NCBI GenBank assembly: GCA_028714535.1
Contig: JAQTME010000003.1
Coordinates: 26,570 to 90,569, forward strand
DNA length: 64,000 nt
From: Candidatus Iainarchaeum sp.
GTDB lineage: Archaea; Micrarchaeota; Micrarchaeia; Anstonellales; Bilamarchaeaceae
Direction: 5' to 3'
Below the pieces are notes generated by a model that saw nothing but the letters and a program-made list of their open reading frames with translations, was not told the DNA's origin and searched no databases. The translations under genes were made by a program, and so were the position numbers. Shown here in pieces: positions 1 through 16,961 of this stretch. How positions within the stretch are numbered: the stretch's first letter is position 1; each line of letters opens with the position of its first letter.

Positions 1-1025
1 AGTGCCTGGACATATGCGGCCCGCTCATCGCGTCAAAGGACCTTTCGGTCTACAATGGCATCTCATCCTGCCACATGCGGCTCGGCATCTGGTACCTGCG
101 GGAGACCTTCGACGAGGCAAGGGATTTCGCGTTCGACATCTACATAAGCTACATCAAGACCTCCATGATCGCCGAATTCACCATAAACATAGAGTACTTC
201 ACCGAATATGCGGGCTTCTTCACGTTCACGCCCTGGCGCGGCTTCTTCACCATGGGCAACACCGTGAAGCAGCTGTGCTTCGACTGGGCCATAAAGATCA
301 TGATGCTGTGCAAGTTCCAGGAGGTCCTGCTCCGCTACATCGCAGTGGCGCTTTTCCCCGCCCTCTTCGTCATCGGCGCGCTCCTCAGGGCTTTCACGTT
401 CACGCGCAGGCTCGGCGGCCTCATCCTCGCCATGGCCATAGCGCTGTATTTCGTTTTCCCTGCCTTCTACGCGTTCGGCGCGCTGGTCATGCTGGACCTC
501 AAGAGCAAGGCGTACAGCGACTGGATGGCCAATGACAAGGCCAACCCCAACCAGCTCCCAGACCCGCCCATAGCGAATACCATGTACATCAACGAGAAGG
601 TCACGATGATAGGGGGCACGTTCACCAGCCAGGAAGCCAGGCAAGCGCTTGCGGAATACGAGGGGCTGGAGGACGACGTCTATATGGAGAAGGTGGAGCA
701 GGGCCAGGCCTCAGGCCTTCTGCCGCCGCTGGGCGACCTCTCTGCCACGAACACGCCCACCGACGAGGAGGCCAAATCCACGCTCCAGCAGGCATACGAC
801 AAGGTCTCAGACTGGAAGGACGCCCTGTCCAAGGAAGGCAAGTTCGACCATTTCATCACCAACGCATGGAAGGAGAACGGGCCCCTGGACGTGCTGGCCA
901 GGATAACCTTCTGGTCGCTGTTCTTCGGGCTTTTCGGCATAATCGCCACCATCGGCGTCATCCGTTCCATCTCCATAACGTTCGGAGGGGACATCGAGAT
1001 AGCAGGTCTTACGAGGCTGATATGA
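1..1025 (+). CDS. Polytopic membrane protein, paralog 1 of 4 (5' truncated by window edge)
   Basis: Frame 3 is open to the window edge (..CLDICGPLIASKDLSVYNGISSCHMRLGIW); motif GALLRAFTFTRRLGGLILAMAIALYFVFPAF; C-terminus FGGDIEIAGLTRLI. Confidence 0.75.
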   Translation, partial: CLDICGPLIASKDLSVYNGISSCHMRLGIWYLRETFDEARDFAFDIYISYIKTSMIAEFTINIEYFTEYAGFFTFTPWRGFFTMGNTVKQLCFDWAIKIMMLCKFQEVLLRYIAVALFPALFVIGALLRAFTFTRRLGGLILAMAIALYFVFPAFYAFGALVMLDLKSKAYSDWMANDKANPNQLPDPPIANTMYINEKVTMIGGTFTSQEARQALAEYEGLEDDVYMEKVEQGQASGLLPPLGDLSATNTPTDEEAKSTLQQAYDKVSDWKDALSKEGKFDHFITNAWKENGPLDVLARITFWSLFFGLFGIIATIGVIRSISITFGGDIEIAGLTRLI

Positions 1026-2263
1026 TGTGCACCACGGTCCCTGCAGCCGCCTTCGTCGCCTTCCTCCTGCTCGCCCCGCTGGCGTTCGCCCAGGAGGCAG
1101 ACAAGTCCGGCCTGGGCACCGGCTTCGACAAGCTCAGCAGCGCGCTTGACAAGCAGAAGGAGGACTTCGTCTACGGCGCCAGCTCGTTCGGCCGCGGCCT
1201 CAGCACCGTGCCGGGCAACCTGCTGGACGCGTTCGGCAAAAGCTCCTGCGAGGACCCCTGGGCCGTGGGCGGCGTGAACAATTCCTATCCTGCCATAGGC
1301 CTATGGCTCGCGCCTGCCGTGGCAGTCGGCTTCATAGTCATGATAGGGGTGGCGATAATCTACATGCTCGGCCAGTTCTTCAGCTCCCCGAACCTCATCG
1401 CCATTGCAAAGGACGAGGGTTTCCAGACCGCCCTCACGTTCCTGCGCGTCCTGTTCATAATCGGGATGATGTTGGGCGCCAACATGTGGTTCTCGCTCAG
1501 CGCGCCCACCTCCGACCCCATATACTCGCAGAACCCGCAGATGATAGACGCGTCCATGGCATTCTCGAGGCTCATGGTCAGCGACATGGTCACCCACTAC
1601 AGCATGCTGGTGATGTACAACACCGTCATACACACGATATATTCGTCCACCATGTGGATCGGCGTCACCTGGCGCGCCATGTATTCCATCAACCTGGGCC
1701 CCGTGCTCAAGCCCATAATAGACCTGGTGGGCACGTCCCTGCAGTTCCTCTCGCTGGGTATGACGGAATGGCTCATGCACGTCATCACCCTGTGCATGAT
1801 AAAGAAATACATGTGGAGCTTCTTCATACCCATAGGCATGCTCCTGCGCGCATTCCCGTACACGCGCAACGCCGGAGAGGCCCTCCTGGCGCTCGCATTC
1901 GCCCTGGTGATATTCTACCCGCTCATGTTCCTGTTCAGCTACGAGGCCCACAAGATACTCTCATACAACCTGGTGGATGCCAAGAACGCGATGGGCAACT
2001 TCCTCAACAAAAGCGGCATACTGGCCGTCTTCGGGCCGGCGCTGGTCGTCATGTTCCTCATGGCAGGCGTTTTCATGCCGTTCTTCCTTGGCGGGGCCCT
2101 GACCCTTGCGTTCGAACTCATAAAAGGCGCCGTATACTACATCGTGATAATGAGCGTCTTCCTGCCCTTCCTGAATCTTTTCGTCACGCTTACCGCCGCC
2201 AAGGAGACTGCCAAGTTCTTCAACGTGGACGTGAATTTCATGTCGTTCCTGAAAATAATATGA
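1022..2263 (+). CDS. Polytopic membrane protein, paralog 2 of 4, with signal peptide
   Basis: Start overlaps upstream stop (ATGATG at 1022/1025); MMCTTVPAAAFVAFLLLAPLAFAQ signal; motif MLLRAFPYTRNAGEALLALAFALVIFYP; C-terminus FNVDVNFMSFLKII. Confidence 0.75.
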   Translation: MMCTTVPAAAFVAFLLLAPLAFAQEADKSGLGTGFDKLSSALDKQKEDFVYGASSFGRGLSTVPGNLLDAFGKSSCEDPWAVGGVNNSYPAIGLWLAPAVAVGFIVMIGVAIIYMLGQFFSSPNLIAIAKDEGFQTALTFLRVLFIIGMMLGANMWFSLSAPTSDPIYSQNPQMIDASMAFSRLMVSDMVTHYSMLVMYNTVIHTIYSSTMWIGVTWRAMYSINLGPVLKPIIDLVGTSLQFLSLGMTEWLMHVITLCMIKKYMWSFFIPIGMLLRAFPYTRNAGEALLALAFALVIFYPLMFLFSYEAHKILSYNLVDAKNAMGNFLNKSGILAVFGPALVVMFLMAGVFMPFFLGGALTLAFELIKGAVYYIVIMSVFLPFLNLFVTLTAAKETAKFFNVDVNFMSFLKII

Positions 2264-2273
2264 GGATGCAACG

Positions 2274-3368
2274 ATGGCCTTTGGACTGATGGAACCGGAA
2301 CTGATAGTATCTGGCGGTGCAGCCGGGGGGCTATGGGAAATGGCGGCCCTCTCAGGCCTCGCGCTGGCCGTTTCCGGAGTAATCCTCGCCTTCATGTACA
2401 CCTGGGCCACGCTTTTCCGCAGCCCGTCGACGGAGGCATACGTGCGGCAGGAGGTCTATGAGGTCCTGATATCGGCCGTCCTGGTCATAATCATAATCGT
2501 CCTGGTGGGCGCCATGAGCGACCTTTCCGTGGGCGGCTTCCTGCCTGACGAGCTGCTGCCCGATGGCGTGGCTGCCAGTACCAACATCTATCAGGCCACG
2601 GCCATGTATTACGAGCGCGTGGCCAAAGACATGGAGAGCTGGCTCAACCTCAACTACTTCATGAACATAATAGTGGACCAGATGGCCTCGATAACGCCAT
2701 ATGCGCGGCCGCTGGGCGTGGGCCTGGTCGCATCGCCCATGGCAGGCTTCGCCTCGCCCATAAAGCAGCTGCTGTACAACATGAGCGTCGGGCTCTCGGT
2801 CGCCTACATAATAAACGTCGCCCAGCTGTACGTCTACGTGTTCGCGCTCCAGGCATTCACGAAATACTACCTGCCGCTCGGCATATTCTTCCGGTGCTTC
2901 ACGCCCACCCGCAGGCTCGGCGGCACGCTCATCGGGATAGCCATGGCGTTCCTGTTCGTCTTCCCGGCCCTCAGCGTCATCACATACAGCATGTTCTACA
3001 ATCACGCAGGCGGCCCGCTGCTGTCATTCTCAAACCTCCTGGGCTACTACATCTCCGACCAGGGCACCTTCAGGGAGTTCGTCCTTAACTTCTTCAAGAG
3101 CAACTTCACCACCACCGGTTCAGGAGGCACCGGCATAGTGGACCTGGTGACCGGCAGTTTCGGCCTGATCTTCGGCGGGCTCCAGGGCATGATGGGAACG
3201 GTGTTCCTCATGTTCCTGATATTCCCGGTATCCATCGTGAGCCTCGCGTTCGTGCTGGGCTTCGTGGTGCCCGCCTTCAACGTGATCATATTCACAGAGG
3301 CAGCCAAGGGGCTGGCCAAGAGTTTCGGCGAGGAAGTCGACATAAGCTCGCTCACGAGGCTGATATAG
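2274..3368 (+). CDS. Polytopic membrane protein, paralog 3 of 4
   Basis: Motif FFRCFTPTRRLGGTLIGIAMAFLFVFP; C-terminus FGEEVDISSLTRLI; 10-bp gap to upstream gene. Confidence 0.75.
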   Translation: MAFGLMEPELIVSGGAAGGLWEMAALSGLALAVSGVILAFMYTWATLFRSPSTEAYVRQEVYEVLISAVLVIIIIVLVGAMSDLSVGGFLPDELLPDGVAASTNIYQATAMYYERVAKDMESWLNLNYFMNIIVDQMASITPYARPLGVGLVASPMAGFASPIKQLLYNMSVGLSVAYIINVAQLYVYVFALQAFTKYYLPLGIFFRCFTPTRRLGGTLIGIAMAFLFVFPALSVITYSMFYNHAGGPLLSFSNLLGYYISDQGTFREFVLNFFKSNFTTTGSGGTGIVDLVTGSFGLIFGGLQGMMGTVFLMFLIFPVSIVSLAFVLGFVVPAFNVIIFTEAAKGLAKSFGEEVDISSLTRLI

Positions 3369-4424
3369 ATGGCATTCACAGCGTTTTACGGGGACTGGCA
3401 GACGATCTCCCTGGCCGCCGCCGCGCTCTCCATAGTCGGCTCCACCCTGCTAATCATGCTCTCGCGGCTGTTCGGCCTGCGCAACCTGGAGCAGATAGCC
3501 AAGACAGAGTTCGTCTATGCGGCCTCCACCGTCCTCATCGTGCTTGTCGTGCTCGTCATCGTCCAGTACGGCGAATGGTACCTGGCCAACCATTCGTCCG
3601 GCGTGGTGAGGGCAATGTACCTCTCGTCGTTCGGCTGCGACCCCTCGACGCCCGTCTCGTTCCCGAACCAGGACACCCTCATCGACTGGATGAAGCTCTA
3701 CATGGAGACCGCCACGCGCTGCGTCCAGGATTTCATGAACGTGCTCTATGCGCTTTCGGTCCCCATAGAGGCATGCACGTCCGTGTACATGGAAATCTTC
3801 ATGTCCGAGCACGCCTCCGGGTTCGCATGCAAGTGGGTGGCCGAGCGCATCACCAACGCGGTGCAGTCGTTCACATTCTACATGTACGCCTTCTTCCTCA
3901 TCGGGCACATACTGAATTTCGTCAAATACTACGCCGGGTTCTTCTTCTCCATCGGCGTCGCGCTGCGCGCCTTCCCGCCATCGCGCGGCGCGGGGGCATA
4001 CCTCATGGCCATAGCGTTCGGCCTCTATTTCGTGCTGCCGTTCACCTACGTCCTTGTCGCCACCACCTCCATGCCCTACGTCCAGTCAGAGCTGCTGAGC
4101 GGCTCCTGCGATGCCATCGCCAAGGGGGATACCGTCTGCATGATGCCTGCCGTCGCCAGCGCGGAGACGTACCAATGCGAAGGCGCTGCCGCGACCAACG
4201 CGTTCAACGTGCCCGGCCGCATAGAGGCCAACGCTGCGGTGATAGACGACCTGCTCACCGGGTCAAGCCCCAAGATATTCACCCTGGGCCAGCACCTGGT
4301 CTCTGCGATATGCATCCTGCCCATGATAGCGTTCGTCATACTGCTGACATTCGTGCTCAACACGACCAACCTGTTCGGCGGCAACATCCCTGAGATCGGG
4401 CGCGGCCTGGTCAAGCTGATTTGA
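3369..4424 (+). CDS. Polytopic membrane protein, paralog 4 of 4
   Basis: Motif VALRAFPPSRGAGAYLMAIAFGLYFVLP; C-terminus FGGNIPEIGRGLVKLI; begins immediately after the previous stop. Confidence 0.75.
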   Translation: MAFTAFYGDWQTISLAAAALSIVGSTLLIMLSRLFGLRNLEQIAKTEFVYAASTVLIVLVVLVIVQYGEWYLANHSSGVVRAMYLSSFGCDPSTPVSFPNQDTLIDWMKLYMETATRCVQDFMNVLYALSVPIEACTSVYMEIFMSEHASGFACKWVAERITNAVQSFTFYMYAFFLIGHILNFVKYYAGFFFSIGVALRAFPPSRGAGAYLMAIAFGLYFVLPFTYVLVATTSMPYVQSELLSGSCDAIAKGDTVCMMPAVASAETYQCEGAAATNAFNVPGRIEANAAVIDDLLTGSSPKIFTLGQHLVSAICILPMIAFVILLTFVLNTTNLFGGNIPEIGRGLVKLI

Positions 4425-4453
4425 TTTATAAACATTGTCGGATAGGTGCAGCC

Positions 4454-5020
4454 ATGCCAGAGCGCAAATATGTTGTCGATACATCCCTTTTCGTGAATCC
4501 GCACGCGCGGAAGGATTTCGGGAAGGACCCGACAGCCGCGGTGCGCGGCTTCATCAGGAAGCTCAACGGCCTTGACATCGAGGTCTACATGCCGCCGTCC
4601 ATCTTCAACGAGCTGAGGAACTTCGTGCAGCCGAAGGCCATCGGCGAGCTGGAGCTGGCCATCCGCAAGCGCGCGCCCAACACCTACGGCATCTACCTTC
4701 CCGCGGCTGTGCTCTACGACTTCATAGAGGACGTGCGCATCCGCATAAACAAGGGGCTGCGCCTGGCCGAGGATTTCGCCAAGGACAACAGGCCTGACAA
4801 CGACGAGAAGCTGCGCAGGCTCCGCGACAAGTACCGCGACGCGATGCGCACCGGCATAATAGACAGCAAGGAGGACTTCGAGCTCGTCCTGCTCGCCAAG
4901 GAGCTCGAGGCGACCATGGTATCCTCGGACGAGGGCGTGATAAAGTTCGCGGACCAGATAGGGTGCGCCTGGCTGTCGGCCGACAAGTTCCACGCGGTCA
5001 TGAAGAAGCTGAAGGGCTAA
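4454..5020 (+). CDS. RNA ligase partner protein, PIN-domain-like
   Basis: MPERKYVVDTSLFVNPHARKDFG..; archaeal RNA ligase partner family; next to a Pab1020-type RNA ligase. Confidence 0.8.
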   Translation: MPERKYVVDTSLFVNPHARKDFGKDPTAAVRGFIRKLNGLDIEVYMPPSIFNELRNFVQPKAIGELELAIRKRAPNTYGIYLPAAVLYDFIEDVRIRINKGLRLAEDFAKDNRPDNDEKLRRLRDKYRDAMRTGIIDSKEDFELVLLAKELEATMVSSDEGVIKFADQIGCAWLSADKFHAVMKKLKG

Positions 5021-6084
5021 TCCGTAATCCCCTTGCCATTGGCGTAGGAAGCGAGCGTCTTCGTGGTCTTCTTGTATATTTTCCTGAAGCGTATCCTTGT
5101 CCTTCCGTTCTCCTTGCGCGTCCACAATTCCTCGAGCCTGACCTCGTGGCTCATGTGCCTGTGGATGTCGTCCCAGATTTTCGGGTCGCGGACTGATATC
5201 TCGAACTCGTCGCCCGCGTCCCCGCCTTCCTGCACCCGCTTGAGCGCGGCCTCCAGGCCGTCGTAGAACGCCCTGCCGAGCTCCAGCGCGTATTCGTCCC
5301 TGCCCAGCCCGAAGTCCTTTATGAAGAAGGCCGAGCGCAGCACGCGCTGGTGGAAGAAGCCGATTGGCATGTCGAACAGCATCCCAGACCCGTTGGCTAT
5401 GTCCTCTATGTCGGACCATGGGGTGACGTATTTGACCGCGCAGGTGGCGCCCTTGAGCACCATGCCCTCCTTCTTCCCCTTGTTCAGCGCCAGGATGGCC
5501 TTGCGCAAGCCAGCATAGTCGTCGCTCCTGAACTTCCCGAGCACAGGCACCGAGCGCATCCCGTATTTTTTCACGAGCGCGTACCTCTGCGCGCAAGGGA
5601 GGTAGGCGCCGGGCCCCCTGCCTATGTCGAACACGAAAAGCATGACGTCGAAATCCTTCGCCGGCGCGGTATAGGGCGTATTGCCTATCATCTCGCAGCA
5701 GAGGATCGAATCCGGGTTGTCCCTGAAAAACGCTGCGATGCCCTTGTCGTCCCGCGCCTTCTCGGTCACGAACGCGTCCAGGAACCCGCCGCGGGAGAAT
5801 GCGAATACCCTCCCGCCGACGGACGCCACGCGCACGTTGAAGCCGTCGATCTTCTCCTCCGCGTGCAGTTCCGCGTCCCGCATGTTCCTCTTCAGGCCGT
5901 TCTCGAGCGTGAATATCCTCTTTATGTGCGGGTATCCGCGGATGGCCTTCTTCCCCGCGATGACGGTCCCGCGTTCCACGCCCGCATGCGAATCCCGGAA
6001 CCGTATGTATTCGATTTCGCCGCTGAGCCTCTCCGCCCTCCCTGCCTTCAGGGCCCCGGCCACGAGCGATGCGGTCATCTCCAC
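5017..6084 (-). CDS. RNA ligase, archaeal Pab1020 family
   Basis: Nucleotidyltransferase motif I EEKIDGFNVR; tail-to-tail 4-bp overlap with partner gene. Confidence 0.85.
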   Translation of the reverse strand: MEMTASLVAGALKAGRAERLSGEIEYIRFRDSHAGVERGTVIAGKKAIRGYPHIKRIFTLENGLKRNMRDAELHAEEKIDGFNVRVASVGGRVFAFSRGGFLDAFVTEKARDDKGIAAFFRDNPDSILCCEMIGNTPYTAPAKDFDVMLFVFDIGRGPGAYLPCAQRYALVKKYGMRSVPVLGKFRSDDYAGLRKAILALNKGKKEGMVLKGATCAVKYVTPWSDIEDIANGSGMLFDMPIGFFHQRVLRSAFFIKDFGLGRDEYALELGRAFYDGLEAALKRVQEGGDAGDEFEISVRDPKIWDDIHRHMSHEVRLEELWTRKENGRTRIRFRKIYKKTTKTLASYANGKGITD

Positions 6085-6655: not shown

Positions 6656-7591
6656 ATGGATCCCTTCAGACGACGCCCTGAGCCTGCCAGCATGCCACTG
6701 CTGCTCGGCACGGCCCTCGTGCTCATAGCGGTGTTCGTGGCAGTTGTGGCATTGTTCTTCGCCTTCTCCCCGCTCGTGCCCTCATTCACGGGCCAGTGCG
6801 TCGCAGTGGTCGACCTCAACCAGGAGATCGCCCTGGAAGGCTCCGAGCCGACCATATTCACTGCCGGCTCACCGGGCTCCGAGGAAATCGCGCAGAGCAT
6901 CCGTGCGCTTGGCAGTCGGGATGATGTCGGCGCCGTACTTTTCGTGGTCAATTCCCCCGGCGGCTCCGTGGTCGCCACGCGCGAGATATACGACGCCGTC
7001 AAGGAGCTGGACAAGCCCAAGGTCGCATATTTCCGCGAGGTCGCGGCTTCGGGCGCCTACTACATAGCGACCGGCACCGATTACATCATATCAGACCCGG
7101 ATGCGCTCACCGGAAGCATCGGCGTGGTGGCGACATTCACGGACCTGAGCGGGCTGCTGGAGAAGATCGGCGTGAACGTCACGTCCATAGCCTCGGGCGC
7201 GCACAAGGACATGGGCTCTGAATTCAGGAACATGACCCCGGAGGAGCAGGCCATAATGCAGGCCCTGATATCTGAGATATATGACGAGTTCCATTCCGTG
7301 GTCCTGGAGAACCGCAGGGGCAGGCTCGACCTGGCCAGGTTCGAAGAGGTTGCAGACGGCCGCATCATGAGCGGGAGGCAGGCAGCGAAAATCGGGCTGG
7401 TGGACGGGGTCGGCTCCAAGCGGGACGCCATACTCAAGGCGGCATCGCTCGCCAACATAAGCGCAGGTTCGGCAGACGAAGTCAGGCTCTGCCAGGTCAG
7501 CTCCATGACGCAGGCCGGCGGGCTCTTCAGCGCCGACGCCCTCATAAGCCAGCTTGAGGCGAAGGCAGGCCTGGCGATGGGCTACAGGTGA
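6656..7591 (+). CDS. sppA: Signal peptide peptidase SppA, S49 serine protease
   Basis: N-terminal TM; VVNSPGGSVVATREIYDAVKELDKPKVAYFREVAASGAYYIA. Confidence 0.85.
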   Translation: MDPFRRRPEPASMPLLLGTALVLIAVFVAVVALFFAFSPLVPSFTGQCVAVVDLNQEIALEGSEPTIFTAGSPGSEEIAQSIRALGSRDDVGAVLFVVNSPGGSVVATREIYDAVKELDKPKVAYFREVAASGAYYIATGTDYIISDPDALTGSIGVVATFTDLSGLLEKIGVNVTSIASGAHKDMGSEFRNMTPEEQAIMQALISEIYDEFHSVVLENRRGRLDLARFEEVADGRIMSGRQAAKIGLVDGVGSKRDAILKAASLANISAGSADEVRLCQVSSMTQAGGLFSADALISQLEAKAGLAMGYR

Positions 7592-7977
7592 GGCGCATGG
7601 CCAGGAAAAAAGGCGGGAAGGCAGCCGGAAAACCGCAGTTCGCCCGCCTGCTCCCGCTCGCCATCCTCGCGGCGCTCGTGGTTTTCGTAGGCGCGGTGCT
7701 AACAGTGTTTTTCTCTTCCCCGGCGCCGGGCGTCTTCCAATACCCTGCCGAGGAGCAGGCCGGATGCGTGCAGGGCACGGCCCGCGCCTGCTCGGTCGGC
7801 AACTGCACCGGCACGTCCGTGTGCCTTGAAGGCGGCACCTGGGGCAGCTGCAAGTGGGTGCGCGTCTGCACCCCCGGCGCAAGGATGGCATGTCTCCAGG
7901 ACGGATGCTCCTACGCCTACAGGGAATGCAACCCCTGCGGCTCAGGCTACGGAAGCTGCACGGTTCCAGGCAACTGA
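7588..7977 (+). CDS. Small membrane-anchored Cys-rich exoprotein
   Basis: GTG start overlapping SppA stop (ATG at 7597); one TM, then 10 Cys in about 70 aa. Confidence 0.6.
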   Translation: MRRMARKKGGKAAGKPQFARLLPLAILAALVVFVGAVLTVFFSSPAPGVFQYPAEEQAGCVQGTARACSVGNCTGTSVCLEGGTWGSCKWVRVCTPGARMACLQDGCSYAYRECNPCGSGYGSCTVPGN

Positions 7978-8036
7978 ACGCACCGATACGGCGCAAACTA
8001 TTGTGTCCAAAAACATAAAATTGAGCGCTGACCGAT

Positions 8037-8050
8037 GGTTTTTAAATAAT
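8037..8050 (+). promoter_or_regulatory. Putative TATA region for the pilin-like operon
   Basis: gtttttaaataat about 25 nt upstream of ATG 8071, typical leaderless spacing. Confidence 0.5.
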
Positions 8051-8070
8051 AGCCACGCATAGCTCTTACC

Positions 8071-8691
8071 ATGCGGGCATTCATATTCTCGTTAGACGCT
8101 TTCGTAGCCTTCACGCTGGCCCTGATAGCAATATATTCGCTGATTTTCTTCTCCAGCATACCGTCGTCCTACTATTACCTCCTCACCCAGGGGCACTACC
8201 TCTCAAGGGACGTGCTCATGGCGCTTTCGACGACCTCGTGCGTCGCCTCTGTATACCCCTGCCCGAGCGGTGAGGGCATCTCGGTGCTCGACAACATCGC
8301 CTCGACCGCCGACATCGACCAGCGCCAGGAACTGGTGCGGGAGACCGTCGGCAAGATGATTCCGGACCAGTTCGGCTACACCATCGAATCCGTGGATTCG
8401 CAGGGCAAGCCAGTCTCCATATACGACACTGCCACCGCCGACGGCGACCCGCATGCCAAGGAGCGCAAGAAGCTGAGCATCGCGTCCCAGGTCATGACCT
8501 TCGGCTATTCATCGGCATACGCCAAGCCCTCGGCTTCGATATACAACTACCTGAGCTGCAACGCGGACGGCGCAGGCATCGGCGGGCTCGTGACCTGCGG
8601 CCTGGGCGGAAACACGAACCCGAGCAGCGGCGGCAAGGACCTCGTGCCTTCTGTCAACGTCAAAATAGTGAAACTGACTATCTTCATATAG
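8071..8691 (+). CDS. Pilin-like membrane-anchored exoprotein
   Basis: MRAFIFSLDAFVAFTLALIAIYSLIFF N-terminus; first gene of a 5-gene set. Confidence 0.55.
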   Translation: MRAFIFSLDAFVAFTLALIAIYSLIFFSSIPSSYYYLLTQGHYLSRDVLMALSTTSCVASVYPCPSGEGISVLDNIASTADIDQRQELVRETVGKMIPDQFGYTIESVDSQGKPVSIYDTATADGDPHAKERKKLSIASQVMTFGYSSAYAKPSASIYNYLSCNADGAGIGGLVTCGLGGNTNPSSGGKDLVPSVNVKIVKLTIFI

Positions 8692-10269
8692 GTGATATGG
8701 TTGAACAAAAAGGGATTCCTGTTTACCGTGACCGTCTTCCTCATACTCACATACATCCTGCTCTCGATATCCGTATGGGTCAAGGGCGTTGAGGCGTCCG
8801 AGCGCGCCTACTCTGAATTCTACAAGGAGTCGACGGTCGAGCTCGCCATAGAGCAGATAACTCCCGCCAAGGTCGACGACGTCACCAACATCGTCATGAA
8901 CCGCGCCCTGTTCAGGCTCAACGGCAATTCCATAGACCATCCTGTCAAGGAAGGGGCTGCCGACGACGAGAACGCATACATAAGCAAGGCGCTATACGGC
9001 CTGCTGGTCAACGGCACGGCGCCATCATCCTGCTTCCAGGACTCGGCCGCCATGGCAGACGACGGCTCCTCGCTGACCGCGTGGATGTCGAACCTCAACG
9101 CGTCCCTGCTCTCCATAGGCGTCTATGTGAGCGAGTTCAGCGTCTCCAATTTCAGGGTTTGGCAGGGCGACATAGACACGGTCAACTACAGCTTCGACAT
9201 GGGCCTCAGGCTCAACGACTATTCCAACACATCGGCCGTCGTGAGGACATACCACCTGAACAACGCGGTCGGGATAAGCGGCCTTGCAGACCCCGCGCTG
9301 GCAAGGGAAAGCAGGAACCTCATAGATGGCCCCAGCACGGCCTACAGGCAGTTCTTCTTCAACAAGTCGCTCTACGCATCGCCGGACAGGATAAGCGTCA
9401 GGCAGCTTTCTACCGGGCAGGCCGGCCAGGGCTGGCTCTACGCCTACCTCGCATCCGCATCAGGCCCTAAGGACCTGGTGCCAAGCGCCGCAGAGCTTGA
9501 CATGTCACAGAGGCGCAACTACATACTGGTCGGCAGCTTCTCTGAAATAACGTCCCTTACGCCTGGCGTATACGAGGCCTTCGCAGGCTACATAATCACT
9601 GACGGGCCCGGCTACCAGGGCGAATGCATCGCCTCGAAGGTGACCAACAAGAACGAGGTGGCGACGTTCAACCCGATAAGGTACTCGGGCGATTCGTGCA
9701 CGGTTGACATAGATCCCGGGGCAGGGGCGCCGACGTCCAAGCCTTTCATCCTGGCCCATGATTTCGACGCGTCGGCTGCGCCAGAATGCCCGATATTCGC
9801 CGGCAATGCCACTGCCCGCGGCAGGTGCGCGCTCATAACGAGCAGATACCTGCCCGAGCAGATCCGCGCAGACCCCCTGAAGAAGCTTGATTCTTCTGCC
9901 AGCGCCATATACGGCGTGGAGGCGATAAGGGACTTCGTCATGTGCGGCTATTATACGCAGAACCCGGCCGCGCCGTCATACTTCCAGCGCCTCATGCCAG
10001 ATTCCTATTCGCGCAACAGCACCCTGGGCATAGAGACATTCGTCATAGGCCAGTACGCCAACTCGACGAACTATGACCTCAACAGCAGGCTCGACAGGGA
10101 GCTTTTCAACGCCAGCATAGACGGGATAAAGATAATGGGGCTGCCAGGCTGCAAGACTTATGAAAGCTGCGCAGACACGCCATCAACCGGCATATTCGCG
10201 ATAAGCCAGCAGACGGTTTCGGCCTACGGCCTGGGCCAGCTGGCATGCAGCGGCTCGAGGTGCGGATGA
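8692..10269 (+). CDS. Large membrane-anchored exoprotein of the pilin-like cassette
   Basis: GTG start directly after upstream stop; NKKGFLFTVTVFLILTYILLSI then about 480 aa extracytoplasmic. Confidence 0.6.
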   Translation: MIWLNKKGFLFTVTVFLILTYILLSISVWVKGVEASERAYSEFYKESTVELAIEQITPAKVDDVTNIVMNRALFRLNGNSIDHPVKEGAADDENAYISKALYGLLVNGTAPSSCFQDSAAMADDGSSLTAWMSNLNASLLSIGVYVSEFSVSNFRVWQGDIDTVNYSFDMGLRLNDYSNTSAVVRTYHLNNAVGISGLADPALARESRNLIDGPSTAYRQFFFNKSLYASPDRISVRQLSTGQAGQGWLYAYLASASGPKDLVPSAAELDMSQRRNYILVGSFSEITSLTPGVYEAFAGYIITDGPGYQGECIASKVTNKNEVATFNPIRYSGDSCTVDIDPGAGAPTSKPFILAHDFDASAAPECPIFAGNATARGRCALITSRYLPEQIRADPLKKLDSSASAIYGVEAIRDFVMCGYYTQNPAAPSYFQRLMPDSYSRNSTLGIETFVIGQYANSTNYDLNSRLDRELFNASIDGIKIMGLPGCKTYESCADTPSTGIFAISQQTVSAYGLGQLACSGSRCG

Positions 10270-10697
10270 TGAAAGGGCAGACATCGCTTGAAGTCCTTGT
10301 GACCGTCGGCATAATCCTGGCGTTCACGATACCGGTCCTGTTCCTCCTCCTCTCCCTCACGTCGGTGGGCTACGAGAAGACCGCCACGGCGCAGGCCGAC
10401 GCATCGGCGCGCTCGCTTGCTGACACCATGAACTTCGTCTATTCCCAGGGGCCCGGGGCCAGGAAGGTGCTCCTGCTCAACGTCCCGGCATCGACCCAGG
10501 ACGTATATGCGGCTGACGGCGAGGCGGTGGTGCGCATAAAGACCTCGGCGGGCACCGTGGATGCGGTCTCGCCCACGTTCGCCAATATCGCAGGCACGTA
10601 CCAGACCACACGCACCGTCGCCGGGCAGAAGACCGGCCTTTTCATAATCATCGTAGAGAACCAGGACGGCAAGGTGAAGTTCGTTGAATCATCCTGA
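10266..10697 (+). CDS. Class III signal peptide (type IV pilin-like) protein
   Basis: MMKGQTSLEVLVTVGIILAFTIPVLFLLLSL. Confidence 0.7.
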   Translation: MMKGQTSLEVLVTVGIILAFTIPVLFLLLSLTSVGYEKTATAQADASARSLADTMNFVYSQGPGARKVLLLNVPASTQDVYAADGEAVVRIKTSAGTVDAVSPTFANIAGTYQTTRTVAGQKTGLFIIIVENQDGKVKFVESS

Positions 10698-11151
10698 GCG
10701 CGGCCAGGTAGCCGCGGAGTTCATGCTTTACACGGCCGTCTTCATGTTCGTGGTCATCGCATCGTTCGTGGTCATAAGCCAGCTGCAGGGCAGCGAGATA
10801 CCCCTGCGGCAGAACACCGTGGCCGAGGAGACGGGCGAGGGCTTCGCCAGCATACTCACGCTGGCGGTAAAGGGCGGGGAGGGCTTCACCTACAGCTACG
10901 CGTTCCCGAAGACCATATTCGGCCTGCCATACGTGATAGACCTGAACGAGCTCGCCTATGGCAAGGACACGTTCATAATGGAATGGGCCGGGCCGTACGG
11001 GAACTTCAGTTACTCGTACGCTGTGCCTGCCTACGATTACCGCATAGCCGGCACGTGCCTGTCGGGCAACAGGCTGCTCAGCAACCAGTGCTCCAACGTG
11101 CTGGTATTAAACAACGATGGGAAGAAACTTACGATAACACAGGGTGAATGA
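10684..11151 (+). CDS. Class III signal peptide (type IV pilin-like) protein
   Basis: RGQVAAEFMLYTAVFMFVVIASFVVI. Confidence 0.7.
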   Translation: MNHPERGQVAAEFMLYTAVFMFVVIASFVVISQLQGSEIPLRQNTVAEETGEGFASILTLAVKGGEGFTYSYAFPKTIFGLPYVIDLNELAYGKDTFIMEWAGPYGNFSYSYAVPAYDYRIAGTCLSGNRLLSNQCSNVLVLNNDGKKLTITQGE

Positions 11152-11662
11152 AATGAAGGGACAATATTTCAGCTTCGATGCCATAATCGCCGCGGTCATA
11201 TTCGTCATGGCGCTGGTCGCGCTGCTTTCCTACTGGCACAGCGTGAAGTCGTACCTGGACTACCAGGCCGACCCGCTCTCGCGCGAGTCCGTGCGCATAT
11301 CGAACCTGCTGTTCACGCCGCCGTCCCCGTCACCCGACTGCATGGAGATGTCCAGGCTCGGATTCTCGTTGGGCTGGGACGACAGGAGGGTGAATTCGTC
11401 CATCGTGGAATGCGCGTCGCTCAGGGCGGGCGTCAGCCCCAACTGGCTGAAGCAGATGCTCGGCACCGGTTATGACGTTTCAATCACCGTGAGCGACCTC
11501 TCCTCGGACATCCCGGCGACTGTCGCTGTCATCGGCGGCTCGGCTGACGACGTGAAGAACGCGAAAGAGGTCGTCAAGATGCGCAGGCTGGCCACGGTGG
11601 TGAACCCCGACGGCTCGACCTACCTGGCGGCGTTCGACCTGAGCATCTATACCGCGCAGTAA
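11144..11662 (+). CDS. Pilin-like protein
   Basis: MKGQYFSFDAIIAAVIFVMALVALLSYW; overlaps upstream gene. Confidence 0.6.
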   Translation: MNEMKGQYFSFDAIIAAVIFVMALVALLSYWHSVKSYLDYQADPLSRESVRISNLLFTPPSPSPDCMEMSRLGFSLGWDDRRVNSSIVECASLRAGVSPNWLKQMLGTGYDVSITVSDLSSDIPATVAVIGGSADDVKNAKEVVKMRRLATVVNPDGSTYLAAFDLSIYTAQ

Positions 11663-14234: not shown

Positions 14235-16961
14235 ATGGATGCCAGTGCCATTGAGAAGAAATGGTCCACGAGGTGGGCAGATGCCAGGGCGTTCGAGGCC
14301 GACCCTGACCCGAAGAGGGAGAAGCGCTACGTCACCGCCGCGTTCCCCTACCCGAACTCGCCCCAGCACATAGGCCATGCCAGGACCTACACTACGGCGG
14401 ACATATATGCGCGCTACCTGAGGCTTAAGGGCTACAACGTGCTCTTCCCCATGGGCTTCCACGTCACAGGGACGCCGATACTGGCCATGGCGAAGCGCAT
14501 CGCGGCCAAGGACCCGGACGTCCTCGGCGTTTTCGACAAGATCTACGGCATCCCGCCATCACAGGCTGCGAAGCTCACCGAGCCGCGCGCCCTCGTCGCC
14601 CATTTCTCCGCCGAGATAGAGCAGGGCATGAGGGAAATCGGCTATTCGATAGACTGGAGGCGGAAATTCTATTCCTACGACGAGAAGTTCAACAGGTTCA
14701 TCCAATGGCAGTTCCGGAAGCTCAAGGAGCTCGGCTACCTGGTGAAGGGCGAGTACCCCATCGCCTGGTGCCCCTCGGACAAGAACGCCGTGAGCGCGCA
14801 CGACACGCGGGGCGACGTGGACCCCGACCTAGACAACGTGACCGTGATAAAGTTCGCTGTTTCTGCCGGCGAATCGCTTGTGGTGACCACCTACCGCCCC
14901 GAGACGGTATACGGGGTCACGAACATCTGGCTCAACCCCAAGGCATCCTACGTGCGGGCGAAGCACGGCAAGGAGACGCTCATACTGGCCGAGGAGGCGG
15001 CGAAAGCGCTCGACCTCCAGCTCGGGCTCGCGATAACAGGCAAGATCAAGGCGGAGGACGTCCTGAAGATGGGCGCGAAGAACCCCATGACCGGCGAAAC
15101 AGTGCCGGTCTGGCCGGCCTCGTTCGTCCAGCCGGGCGTCGGCACCGGAATCGTCATGAGCGTGCCTGCGCATGCCCCGCTGGACTACCTCGCCCTGCGC
15201 GACCTGGGCAAGGAAGGCATGAGGATGCCGCAGGTCGTGAGCCTGAAGGGGTATGGCGCAGCGCCGGCGAAGGAAGCAGTGGAGCGGCTGGGCGTGAAGA
15301 GCCAGGACGACCCGAAGGCAGAGGAGGCCACCGAGGAAATCTACACCAAGGAGGCGCACGAGGGCATAATGCACGCCGGCGAGTTCAAGGGCGAGCATGT
15401 TTCCACCGCGCGCGAGAAAATAGCCGCGAAGATGGCAAAGGGCGGCAGCGCGTTCCCCATAGTCACCATCTCAAACGGCCCGGTCCAGTGCCGCTGCGGC
15501 GCGACAGTGGTCGTCAACATACTCAAGGACCAGTGGTTCATCGACTACGGCATTCCAGGCTGGAAGGACAAGGCCAAGGAATGCCTTTCCGGCATGAAGA
15601 TAATCCCTGAGAAGACGCGCAGCGAATACCTGTATACAATAGACTGGCTGAAAACGAGGCCGTGCACCCGCGCGGCCGGGCTGGGTACGAAGTTCCCGTT
15701 CGACGAGACGAAGATGATAGAGGCGCTTTCCGACTCCACAATCTACATGGCCTACTATACCATCGCGCACCTGCTGGCTGACGTAGACGTGGCGAAGCTG
15801 GACGACAAGTTCTTCGACTACGTCCTGCTCGGGAAAGGCAAGGGCGATGCGCGGATGAAAACGCTGCGCGACAGCTTCCTCTATTGGTATCCGGTCGATT
15901 CCAGGCACAGCGCCGGCGACCTCATCAGGAACCACCTCACGCTCTTCATATTCATCCACGCGGCCATCCTGGAGAAGAGGCTCTGGCCGAGGCAGATCGC
16001 CACCAACGGCTTCGTGCTCATGGACGGCGCCAAGATGAGCAAGAGCATGGGCAACATACTGCCGCTCCGCAAGGCCATAAGGGAATACGGCGCGGACATA
16101 ATCAGGTTCTCGGTCGTCTCAGGCGCAGAGCTGTCGACCGACACGGATTTCAACCGCACGGTGGCCGATGGCGTCCGCTCCAGGCTCGCGCTGATATCGC
16201 GGCTGGTGGACGAGTCGAGGAAAAAGGGCCCTGCCCAGCACGGCAGGATAGAGAAATGGCTGCTTTCGCGGCTGAACCGCAAGATAGGGCTCGCCGACCA
16301 GCTGTATGAGAAGCTCGCCATCCGCGACCTTTCGCTCCAGATATTCTACGACGTCGTTAGCGACCTGCAATGGTACGCGAAGCGGTCCAAGGGCGGGGCG
16401 AACCTGCACGACTTCTTCACGAAATGGGTGGTGCTGATGGCGCCCTTCATGCCGCACTACGCAGAGGAATACTGGGAGCTGCTCGGCGGCAAGGGCCTCG
16501 TGTCGTTCGCCCCCTTCCCCGCGCCGGACGAATCGAAGGTGGACGACACCATCGAGCGCGGCGAGGAGCTGATACGCCGCGTGCATGGCGACATAGAGAA
16601 GATATCGGCGCTCATCAAGAAGAAGCCGGCGCGCGTGACCGTTTACGCTGCATCCGAGTGGAAGCGGAAGCTCTATTCCATGGCCAAGGCCAACCCGTCG
16701 TTCGAGGCGCTCATGAAGGCCGCGGCCGCGGAGAAGATGCCGATGAAGGACGTGCAGAACGTGGCCAAGCAGATAATGAAGAACGTGCACTCCCTGGCGC
16801 TTCCGCTGTCCCAGGACGAGGAGCTCGGCGCGCTGAAGGACGCCGAGGCGTTCCTTTCCGCGGAGTATTCCTGCCCGGTCGAGGTCCTGCCTGAAGAAAA
16901 GGCGAAGCACGACAAGGCGAAATCGTCGCTGCCTGACAAGCCGGCCATCGTGCTGGAATAG
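14235..16961 (+). CDS. leuS: Leucyl-tRNA synthetase, archaeal type
   Basis: PQHIGHARTYT (HIGH) and GAKMSKSMGN (KMSKS) motifs; about 909 aa. Confidence 0.92.
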   Translation: MDASAIEKKWSTRWADARAFEADPDPKREKRYVTAAFPYPNSPQHIGHARTYTTADIYARYLRLKGYNVLFPMGFHVTGTPILAMAKRIAAKDPDVLGVFDKIYGIPPSQAAKLTEPRALVAHFSAEIEQGMREIGYSIDWRRKFYSYDEKFNRFIQWQFRKLKELGYLVKGEYPIAWCPSDKNAVSAHDTRGDVDPDLDNVTVIKFAVSAGESLVVTTYRPETVYGVTNIWLNPKASYVRAKHGKETLILAEEAAKALDLQLGLAITGKIKAEDVLKMGAKNPMTGETVPVWPASFVQPGVGTGIVMSVPAHAPLDYLALRDLGKEGMRMPQVVSLKGYGAAPAKEAVERLGVKSQDDPKAEEATEEIYTKEAHEGIMHAGEFKGEHVSTAREKIAAKMAKGGSAFPIVTISNGPVQCRCGATVVVNILKDQWFIDYGIPGWKDKAKECLSGMKIIPEKTRSEYLYTIDWLKTRPCTRAAGLGTKFPFDETKMIEALSDSTIYMAYYTIAHLLADVDVAKLDDKFFDYVLLGKGKGDARMKTLRDSFLYWYPVDSRHSAGDLIRNHLTLFIFIHAAILEKRLWPRQIATNGFVLMDGAKMSKSMGNILPLRKAIREYGADIIRFSVVSGAELSTDTDFNRTVADGVRSRLALISRLVDESRKKGPAQHGRIEKWLLSRLNRKIGLADQLYEKLAIRDLSLQIFYDVVSDLQWYAKRSKGGANLHDFFTKWVVLMAPFMPHYAEEYWELLGGKGLVSFAPFPAPDESKVDDTIERGEELIRRVHGDIEKISALIKKKPARVTVYAASEWKRKLYSMAKANPSFEALMKAAAAEKMPMKDVQNVAKQIMKNVHSLALPLSQDEELGALKDAEAFLSAEYSCPVEVLPEEKAKHDKAKSSLPDKPAIVLE

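Follow-up and report, generated by a model that had tools for sequence, protein, structure and literature searches.

A six-paralogue membrane protein array as the probable channel of a chromosomal type IV secretion-like machine in Micrarchaeota

Chromosomal relatives of type IV secretion systems (T4SSs) have been described in archaea as the Ced (CedA, CedA1, CedA2, CedB, CedD and CedE) and Ted (TedA, TedB and TedC) systems. Here we describe a tandem array of six paralogous transmembrane (TM) proteins, A to F, in a metagenome-assembled genome (MAG) of Candidatus Micrarchaeota (DPANN archaea; 1.14 Mb in 34 contigs, 91% complete). The last four genes stand at the start of the stretch of DNA that was analysed, 64,000 nucleotides of contig C3 (G000:C3:26570-90569; hereafter the window), and the first two lie directly upstream of it. 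The array is probably the inner-membrane channel and pilus-assembly platform, equivalent to VirB6, of a T4SS-like machine that is chromosomal and occurs across Micrarchaeota.

Ced and Ted are chromosomal, as is the machine described here, and share with it a VirB2-like pilin, a polytopic channel protein with five to seven TM helices and a VirB4/HerA-type ATPase, with no outer-membrane or cell-wall parts. Ced distributes the VirB4 function over two proteins, CedB and CedD (PMC11868833); in Micrarchaeota the two are an ATPase and a protein resembling the N-terminal half of VirB4 (VirB4N). The relation between pilin and channel N-terminus in Ced and Ted (PMC9905601) may also be likened to the situation here. 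However, Ced and Ted belong to a different phylum and have one channel protein (two with CedE) in place of six obligatory paralogues, and their VirB4 is not divided as it is here, into a TM-anchored N-terminal half that lacks the ATPase and a separate ATPase half.

The MPF_FATA or CD1110-type T4SSs of Firmicutes plasmids (for example in Pontibacillus and Vallitalea) resemble the machine in gene order, encoding in turn a pilin-like protein, a large hypothetical membrane protein, PrgI, a split VirB4N and a VirB4 ATPase, and the VirB4N and ATPase of Micrarchaeota are detectably homologous to these counterparts. They are, however, plasmid-borne with a single VirB6, whereas here there are six channel paralogues and no gene for PrgI/VirB3 or a cell-wall hydrolase was found. 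The T4SS of Patescibacteria, compared by description, likewise occurs in ultra-small, host-dependent cells and includes VirB4 and VirB2-like pilins, along with VirB6, pilin arrays and no relaxase (PMC12102498, PMC10633639). It differs in being bacterial and in multiplying the pilins, where Micrarchaeota multiply the channel subunit. Five divergent VirB6 paralogues with unequal extra domains (RvhB6a-e) serve a single T4SS in the rvh system of Rickettsiales (PMC2653234), but that bacterium is a diderm and its T4SS a complete P-type one, and A to F have no detectable sequence kinship to VirB6/TrbL. Finally, for the giant SPEARE proteins of nanohaloarchaea, which are also DPANN, VirB4-like (VirB4/TraG-like) ATPases have been reported and proposed as a T4SS (PMC10266531); again by description, the phylum is different and no six-gene channel array has been described there.

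A T4SS-like machine that combines a putative six-paralogue channel with a split VirB4 is probably previously undescribed. Searches of an open-access library, which covers neither subscription papers nor preprints, brought up no account of this array or of such a machine in Micrarchaeota. Passages on cultured or sampled Micrarchaeota in the papers found there refer to type IV pili or to Sec, or to neither of the two (PMC5498576, PMC5864196, PMC8975820).

Six paralogous membrane proteins

All six genes, delimited by open reading frame (ORF) calling, are on the + strand. Subunits A (C3:23402-24682, beginning with ATG) and B (C3:24684-26225) precede the window. Subunit C (455 amino acids; C3 26227-27594) has its first 342 bases upstream of the window and ends at window position 1025, D (413 or 412 amino acids; C3 27591-28832) occupies window positions 1022/1025-2263, E (364 amino acids; C3 28843-29937) positions 2274-3368, and F (351 amino acids; C3 29938-30993) positions 3369-4424. 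C and D overlap by one to four bases, D and E are separated by 10 bases, and E and F abut with 0 bases between them.

Six residues (G, R, F, R, G and P) are invariant in an alignment of all six proteins, within a core of the form G..LR.F...R..G.....A......P that is encoded at window positions 366-461 in C, 1826-1921 in D, 2871-2966 in E and 3945-4040 in F. The proteins further share a C-terminal motif, present in C (FGGDIEIAGLTRLI, 981-1022), E (FGEEVDISSLTRLI, 3324-3365) and F (FGGNIPEIGRGLVKLI, 4374-4421), looser in D (2222-2260) and missing from B; D also begins with a signal-peptide-like stretch. The first-pass annotation of the window had described four consecutive genes with overlaps or gaps of 0-10 bp, in a cluster that begins before the window. 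The gene positions, spacing and upstream start bear this out, although the array comprises six genes rather than four. The core motif that it had noted recurs in all four window proteins, and the loops do vary strongly in size and Cys content (one to eight Cys per protein), whereas the shared C-terminus applies fully to C, E and F only.

Profiles were built for each orthologue group without this genome's member, and the other five subunits scored 26-95 bits against them. All 30 cross-scores (30 of 30) exceeded the best foreign decoy (13-27 bits) among reversed or window-shuffled sequences that preserve the hydrophobic pattern, so the likeness is not a chance resemblance of membrane proteins. 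A to F are thereby confirmed, at the level of sequence, as true paralogues of one family. It had been considered earlier that the motif might align no better than shuffled sequences, or that profile searches might assign the proteins to unrelated families; the decoys speak against the former, and Pfam, PHROGs and NCBIfam returned only noise, with no credible match to any of A to F. A search of PDB sequences with profiles of the TM family, the pilin and VirB4N gave no match.

Each intact array, of which there are at least 35 (31 of them in one set), contains exactly one member of every orthologue group from A to F, always in that order, which answers the earlier suggestion that gene order be checked in related genomes.

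The AlphaFold2 model of subunit F (104 sequences; mean predicted local distance difference test score (pLDDT) 88, predicted template modelling score 0.84) has long helices at residues 9-35, 38-73, 104-138, 152-199, 203-242 and 300-335 and a short C-terminal helix at 340-350. Conservation is highest in the turn at 196-210, which holds LR.F...R..G (mean top-residue frequency 0.86; two basic and zero acidic residues), and at the C-terminus (0.88, two basic residues). In contrast, the loops at 74-103 and 243-299 show little conservation (0.35 and 0.34), and both are acidic and contain Cys. The positive-inside rule, together with the signal-peptide-like start of D, suggests a topology with the N-terminus outside, the conserved turns and C-terminus inside, and the variable loops outside. 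With this predicted topology the conserved faces would point to a cytoplasmic ATPase ring.

Linkage to pilins and a split VirB4

The strongest evidence that A to F are machine parts is a co-directional operon in family f15, where three genomes (L132, L133 and L134) carry the gene order pilin-pilin-A-B-C-D-E-F-VirB4N-VirB4N-ATPase. Compact operons in other lineages of Micrarchaeota (L118, L116, L137 and L143) encode a pilin of 104-129 amino acids, one TM-family protein, VirB4N and ATPase. At each of these loci a polytopic channel candidate is co-encoded with VirB4 and pilin. Both the set of parts and their order correspond to those of reduced T4SSs (pilin, channel, VirB4), such as Ced and Ted (PMC9905601, PMC11868833) and Gram-positive systems. 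The TM-family genes thus travel with genes for a pilus protein and a conjugation-type motor, and their products are therefore probably the membrane channel of a transfer machine.

The pilins have a signal-peptide-like start and a two-TM hairpin, and match the Pfam families T4SS_pilin (3.6e-4) and TrbC/VirB2 (1.5e-4 to 0.007) at levels below the curated cut-offs. The pilin motif reads A.YAIGQ..GA.TRARAT. In profile-profile comparison VirB4N matches the N-terminal half of split VirB4 from Firmicutes plasmids, sequences located through their ATPase, with a probability of 94% (E=1e-7), or 89% once the N-termini of full-length VirB4 are added. An AlphaFold2 model of one VirB4N protein (five sequences, pLDDT 73) was compared with the PDB by Foldseek. 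VirB4/TrwK of R388 took each of the six top places, at probabilities of 0.94-1.0 and E-values of 1.2e-3 to 3e-2. Context, profile and predicted fold agree in suggesting that VirB4 is split here into an N-terminal half resembling bacterial VirB4 and an ATPase half resembling CedB/VirB4. A VirB4-type ATPase with an N-terminal VirB4 domain, one of the features by which a T4SS is judged, is present. We also considered VirB4N as a fusion with VirB3/PrgI, but profile-profile comparison found no match to PrgI, so its two N-terminal TM helices are VirB3-like by position only.

In a scan of one genome per species, relatives were found only in Candidatus Micrarchaeota MAGs and in a few records labelled otherwise (one 'Marsarchaeota', several 'ainarchaeum' and some only 'archaeon'). 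The TM family is present in all 43 of the 43 genomes of this genome's own family and in 134 of 146 drawn from the phylum. Among the same 146 genomes VirB4N occurs in 135 and the pilin in 133. All three are missing from eleven genomes, which belong to families f14, f16 and f18 and include most of f19, while the TM family is discordant with VirB4N in one genome (G155) and with the pilin in three. Family f19 is divided: the full trio of components occurs in two genomes of a single genus, while four genomes of other genera have none of them. The Fisher p for co-occurrence is about 1e-15, a nominal value inflated by shared ancestry, as no phylogenetic correction was applied. A very divergent tandem set of the TM family was also seen at L120 (JAOAJI010000003.1, SKW190), with a 200 amino acid fragment followed by proteins of 360, 342 and 389 amino acids and then by proteins of 1498 and 1746 amino acids; it may be a further architecture of the same machine.

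In the present genome the parts are dispersed over several contigs. Two stand-alone pilins are encoded on contig C10, and a VirB4N and ATPase pair on contig C24, whose ATPase matches the NCBIfam models VirB4_plasma (6e-20), CedD (1e-19) and CedB (2e-19) about equally. A seventh, divergent TM-family paralogue on contig C7 stands beside a 522 amino acid HerA/VirB4-type ATPase (Pfam DUF87 1e-20 and AAA_10 4e-18; NCBIfam CedB 6e-27 and VirB4 CD1110 5e-25) and a 259 amino acid protein that has two TM helices and a weak match to CedB residues 10-181 (E=0.0015). Identity to the array-linked ATPases of family f15 is 56-60% for the ATPase of C24 and 42% for that of C7, and VirB4N follows the same trend. 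This higher identity makes the C24 pair the likely motor of the array, a choice on which the trees, being weakly supported, do not pronounce, and for the same reason the single-subunit cluster on C7 was set aside as array partner. The first-pass annotation had suggested that an ATPase partner might lie upstream of the array; nothing ATPase-like is found there, and the fitting partner is instead on C24.

The single-subunit version on C7 (L034:9310-17851: TM paralogue, VirB4N and ATPase) has a 946 amino acid protein between its parts. This protein has a secreted N-terminal part with weak likeness to Big_1, one TM helix, and a cytoplasmic C-terminal part that looks metallopeptidase-like, with an HEGLH stretch. 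At the end of contig C6 (L035:4413-9439) is the start of an eighth TM-family paralogue, interrupted by the contig end, which adjoins a divergent 1537 amino acid protein with no Pfam family above cut-off and is possibly part of a third copy of the system.

Subunit B of this genome carries two extra N-terminal pilin copies (by BLASTP 59% identical over 61 amino acids to the genome's own stand-alone pilin, E=6e-20). Genera g8 and g11 instead have a single pilin copy joined to A. Fusion at two different places is independent evidence that the pilin and the products of A to F work together.

Assembly, function and alternative explanations

Several observations weigh against the array as the channel of a T4SS-like machine. 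Neither Pfam nor NCBIfam, searched up to E=10, gives a match of A to F to VirB6/TrbL, and hhalign probabilities are below 1% against both 12 VirB6 proteins of CD1112-type or PrgI-adjacent plasmid loci and the VirB6-like proteins of the Sulfolobus conjugative plasmids pNOB8 and pKEF9. Foldseek with the model of subunit F returned nothing significant from the PDB or BFVD, including R388 VirB6 among the PDB chains, although solved VirB6 chains are few. A viral protein named TrbL, ranked second for F in these searches (E=0.33, TM-score 0.18), is not evidence of kinship. To this may be added the sub-threshold Pfam scores of the pilins, the marginal Foldseek E-values of VirB4N (1.2e-3 at best) from a model of modest quality, and the position of the array, which in this genome and its own family stands apart from pilins and ATPase and is linked to genes for PIN, RNA ligase, CarS, S49 peptidase and pilin-like proteins. 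Hetero-oligomerisation of A to F is our inference.

The VirB6/TrbL-like layout proposed earlier is therefore not matched by detectable homology in Pfam/NCBIfam, profile-profile or Foldseek comparisons. 'VirB6' as applied to A to F denotes a putative role and not a family assignment, and the non-match is best read as an absence of detection. CedA and TedA are themselves only 13% identical (PMC9905601). A relation of the pilin to the first hairpin of A to F was also considered. The hhalign hits are consistent in position and weak (D 34%, C 16%, the others below 10% except the fusion-bearing B), too weak to equate the pilin with the N-terminal hairpin of all six subunits, and we keep this as a hint. 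The weak likeness in C and D recalls that reported between CedA1 and the N-terminus of CedA (PMC9905601). On pNOB8 (L165:29626-32563), a gene for a 106 amino acid pilin-like protein directly precedes one for a 604 amino acid polytopic protein, the N-terminal part of which seems by eye to repeat pilin-like hairpins in a layout like that of subunit B.

The first-pass annotation had also proposed a hetero-oligomeric channel or secretion-type complex. The secretion-type complex gains substance as a T4SS-like one with a HerA/VirB4-type ATPase and fixed gene order, while the hetero-oligomer stays at the level of a proposal. In the mechanism that we favour, A to F would assemble in the cytoplasmic membrane as a single hetero-oligomeric ring. 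Their conserved basic turns and C-termini would be turned towards the VirB4 ATPase in the cytoplasm, and their variable, acidic, Cys-containing loops towards the outside. The VirB4N/ATPase complex would dock beneath this ring, and the ATPase would extract pilins from the membrane and polymerise them through the ring into a pilus. A macromolecule would then move between the symbiont and a neighbouring cell, in either direction. Six subunits in a fixed set would suit a six-fold ATPase that has one of them at each position. We tentatively extend the proposal to an obligate hetero-hexamer with one subunit per six-fold VirB4 position, inherited vertically across the phylum and used in exchange with a host, while regarding this fuller version as somewhat less likely to be right than wrong.

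Two candidate functions present themselves, DNA import as in Ced and Ted, and export of protein or DNA as proposed for Patescibacteria. Import, in which a machine equivalent to Ced/Ted would take up nucleic acids from the host or from neighbours, is a possibility rather than a probability. The same three parts recur in Ced and Ted, which are archaeal T4SS derivatives carried on the chromosome (PMC9905601), and CedB is the best NCBIfam match of the C7 ATPase, but the array-type ATPase of C24 matches CedB no better than CedD or bacterial VirB4. Import also draws support from the result that PF02534 finds no VirD4-type coupling protein in this 91% complete genome (a relaxase was not searched for), which makes plasmid-style conjugation unlikely.

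Delivery of proteins into the host is a slightly weaker possibility. Epibiotic Patescibacteria, for which it has been proposed, share the same class of lifestyle. Epibiotic growth of a Saccharibacterium requires its T4SS and pilin array, and there, too, a coupling protein is reported to be missing, as is a relaxase (PMC10633639; PMC12102498). However, no candidate substrates were identified in this analysis.

It is unlikely that A to F form several alternative or sequential homo-oligomeric channels, each VirB6-like with a task of its own. The five RvhB6 proteins of Rickettsia (PMC2653234) provide a model for such a division, and the strong variation in extracellular loops would suit it. In contrast, the presence of one copy each of six kinds in fixed order, with no loss or expansion in intact arrays, is more readily explained by obligate components of a single assembly than by channels that are optional.

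That the array is an independent membrane complex (for example in adhesion, S-layer or transport), coincidentally as universal as VirB4/VirB2 and only secondarily linked to them in f15, would accord with its neighbours in its own family and with the missing VirB6 homology, but is improbable in the face of the contiguous f15 operon, the TM-family paralogue that is the single membrane protein beside VirB4N and ATPase in other lineages, the pilin fusions to B or A, and the joint presence or absence of the TM family, VirB4N and pilin.

Two further settings were rejected. A type IV pilus or archaellum has no PilB-type ATPase near the array to support it, the T2SSE ATPases of this genome being on contigs C2 and C4. 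A mobile-element setting today is unsupported because relatives of subunit F were not found in viral contigs, nor relatives of the C7 paralogue on plasmids.

Neighbouring genes and biological significance

Upstream of the array is a gene that, from reading its translation, encodes a divergent aspartyl-tRNA synthetase-like protein. Directly 3' of F on the + strand is a gene for a PIN_5 ribonuclease-like protein (4421-5020; Pfam PF08745, E=5e-53), which clustering of flanking genes identifies as a recurrent neighbour of the array in many relatives; nothing points to its membership in the machine. The pairing of this nuclease with a divergent RNA ligase (RNA_ligase plus Lig_C, Pab1020 type; together 4421-6084) directly behind the array is kept in about 20 relative loci, and the products look unrelated to secretion.

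Further downstream, 3' of an S49 peptidase gene (6656-7591), a + strand run of ORFs at 7588-11662 encodes one TM protein rich in Cys, together with five small proteins that are pilin-like or secreted (7588-7977, 8071-8691, 8692-10269, 10245-10697, 10684-11151 and 11144-11662). These match no Pfam family and are considered here as neighbours only. The same genes recur in 7-14 relative loci, and the run adjoins the array in many relatives (including L072-L111). Several of its proteins have N-termini of the KGQ.S.E or DAFVAF type. Elsewhere in the genome, contig C6 contains a provirus-like stretch on the minus strand (L126:12402-16755) with putative structural proteins and, at 16132-16755, a small P-loop protein resembling a packaging ATPase; two of the proteins are without an NCBIfam match.

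How DPANN archaea exchange material with their hosts has long been debated. Their co-cultures have shown pili-like connections and protein nanotubes, to which no molecular identity was assigned (PMC5498576, PMC11329633); in the latter study the tubes appear to be host-derived. A near-universal machine offers named genes (pilins, an ATPase and six channel subunits) that can be sought in co-culture proteomes and by cryo-electron microscopy. If the proposal is true, the channel of a T4SS would here have been turned into a six-part hetero-oligomer, and chromosomal T4SS derivatives would extend from Thermoproteota, with Ced and Ted, to a phylum of DPANN archaea.

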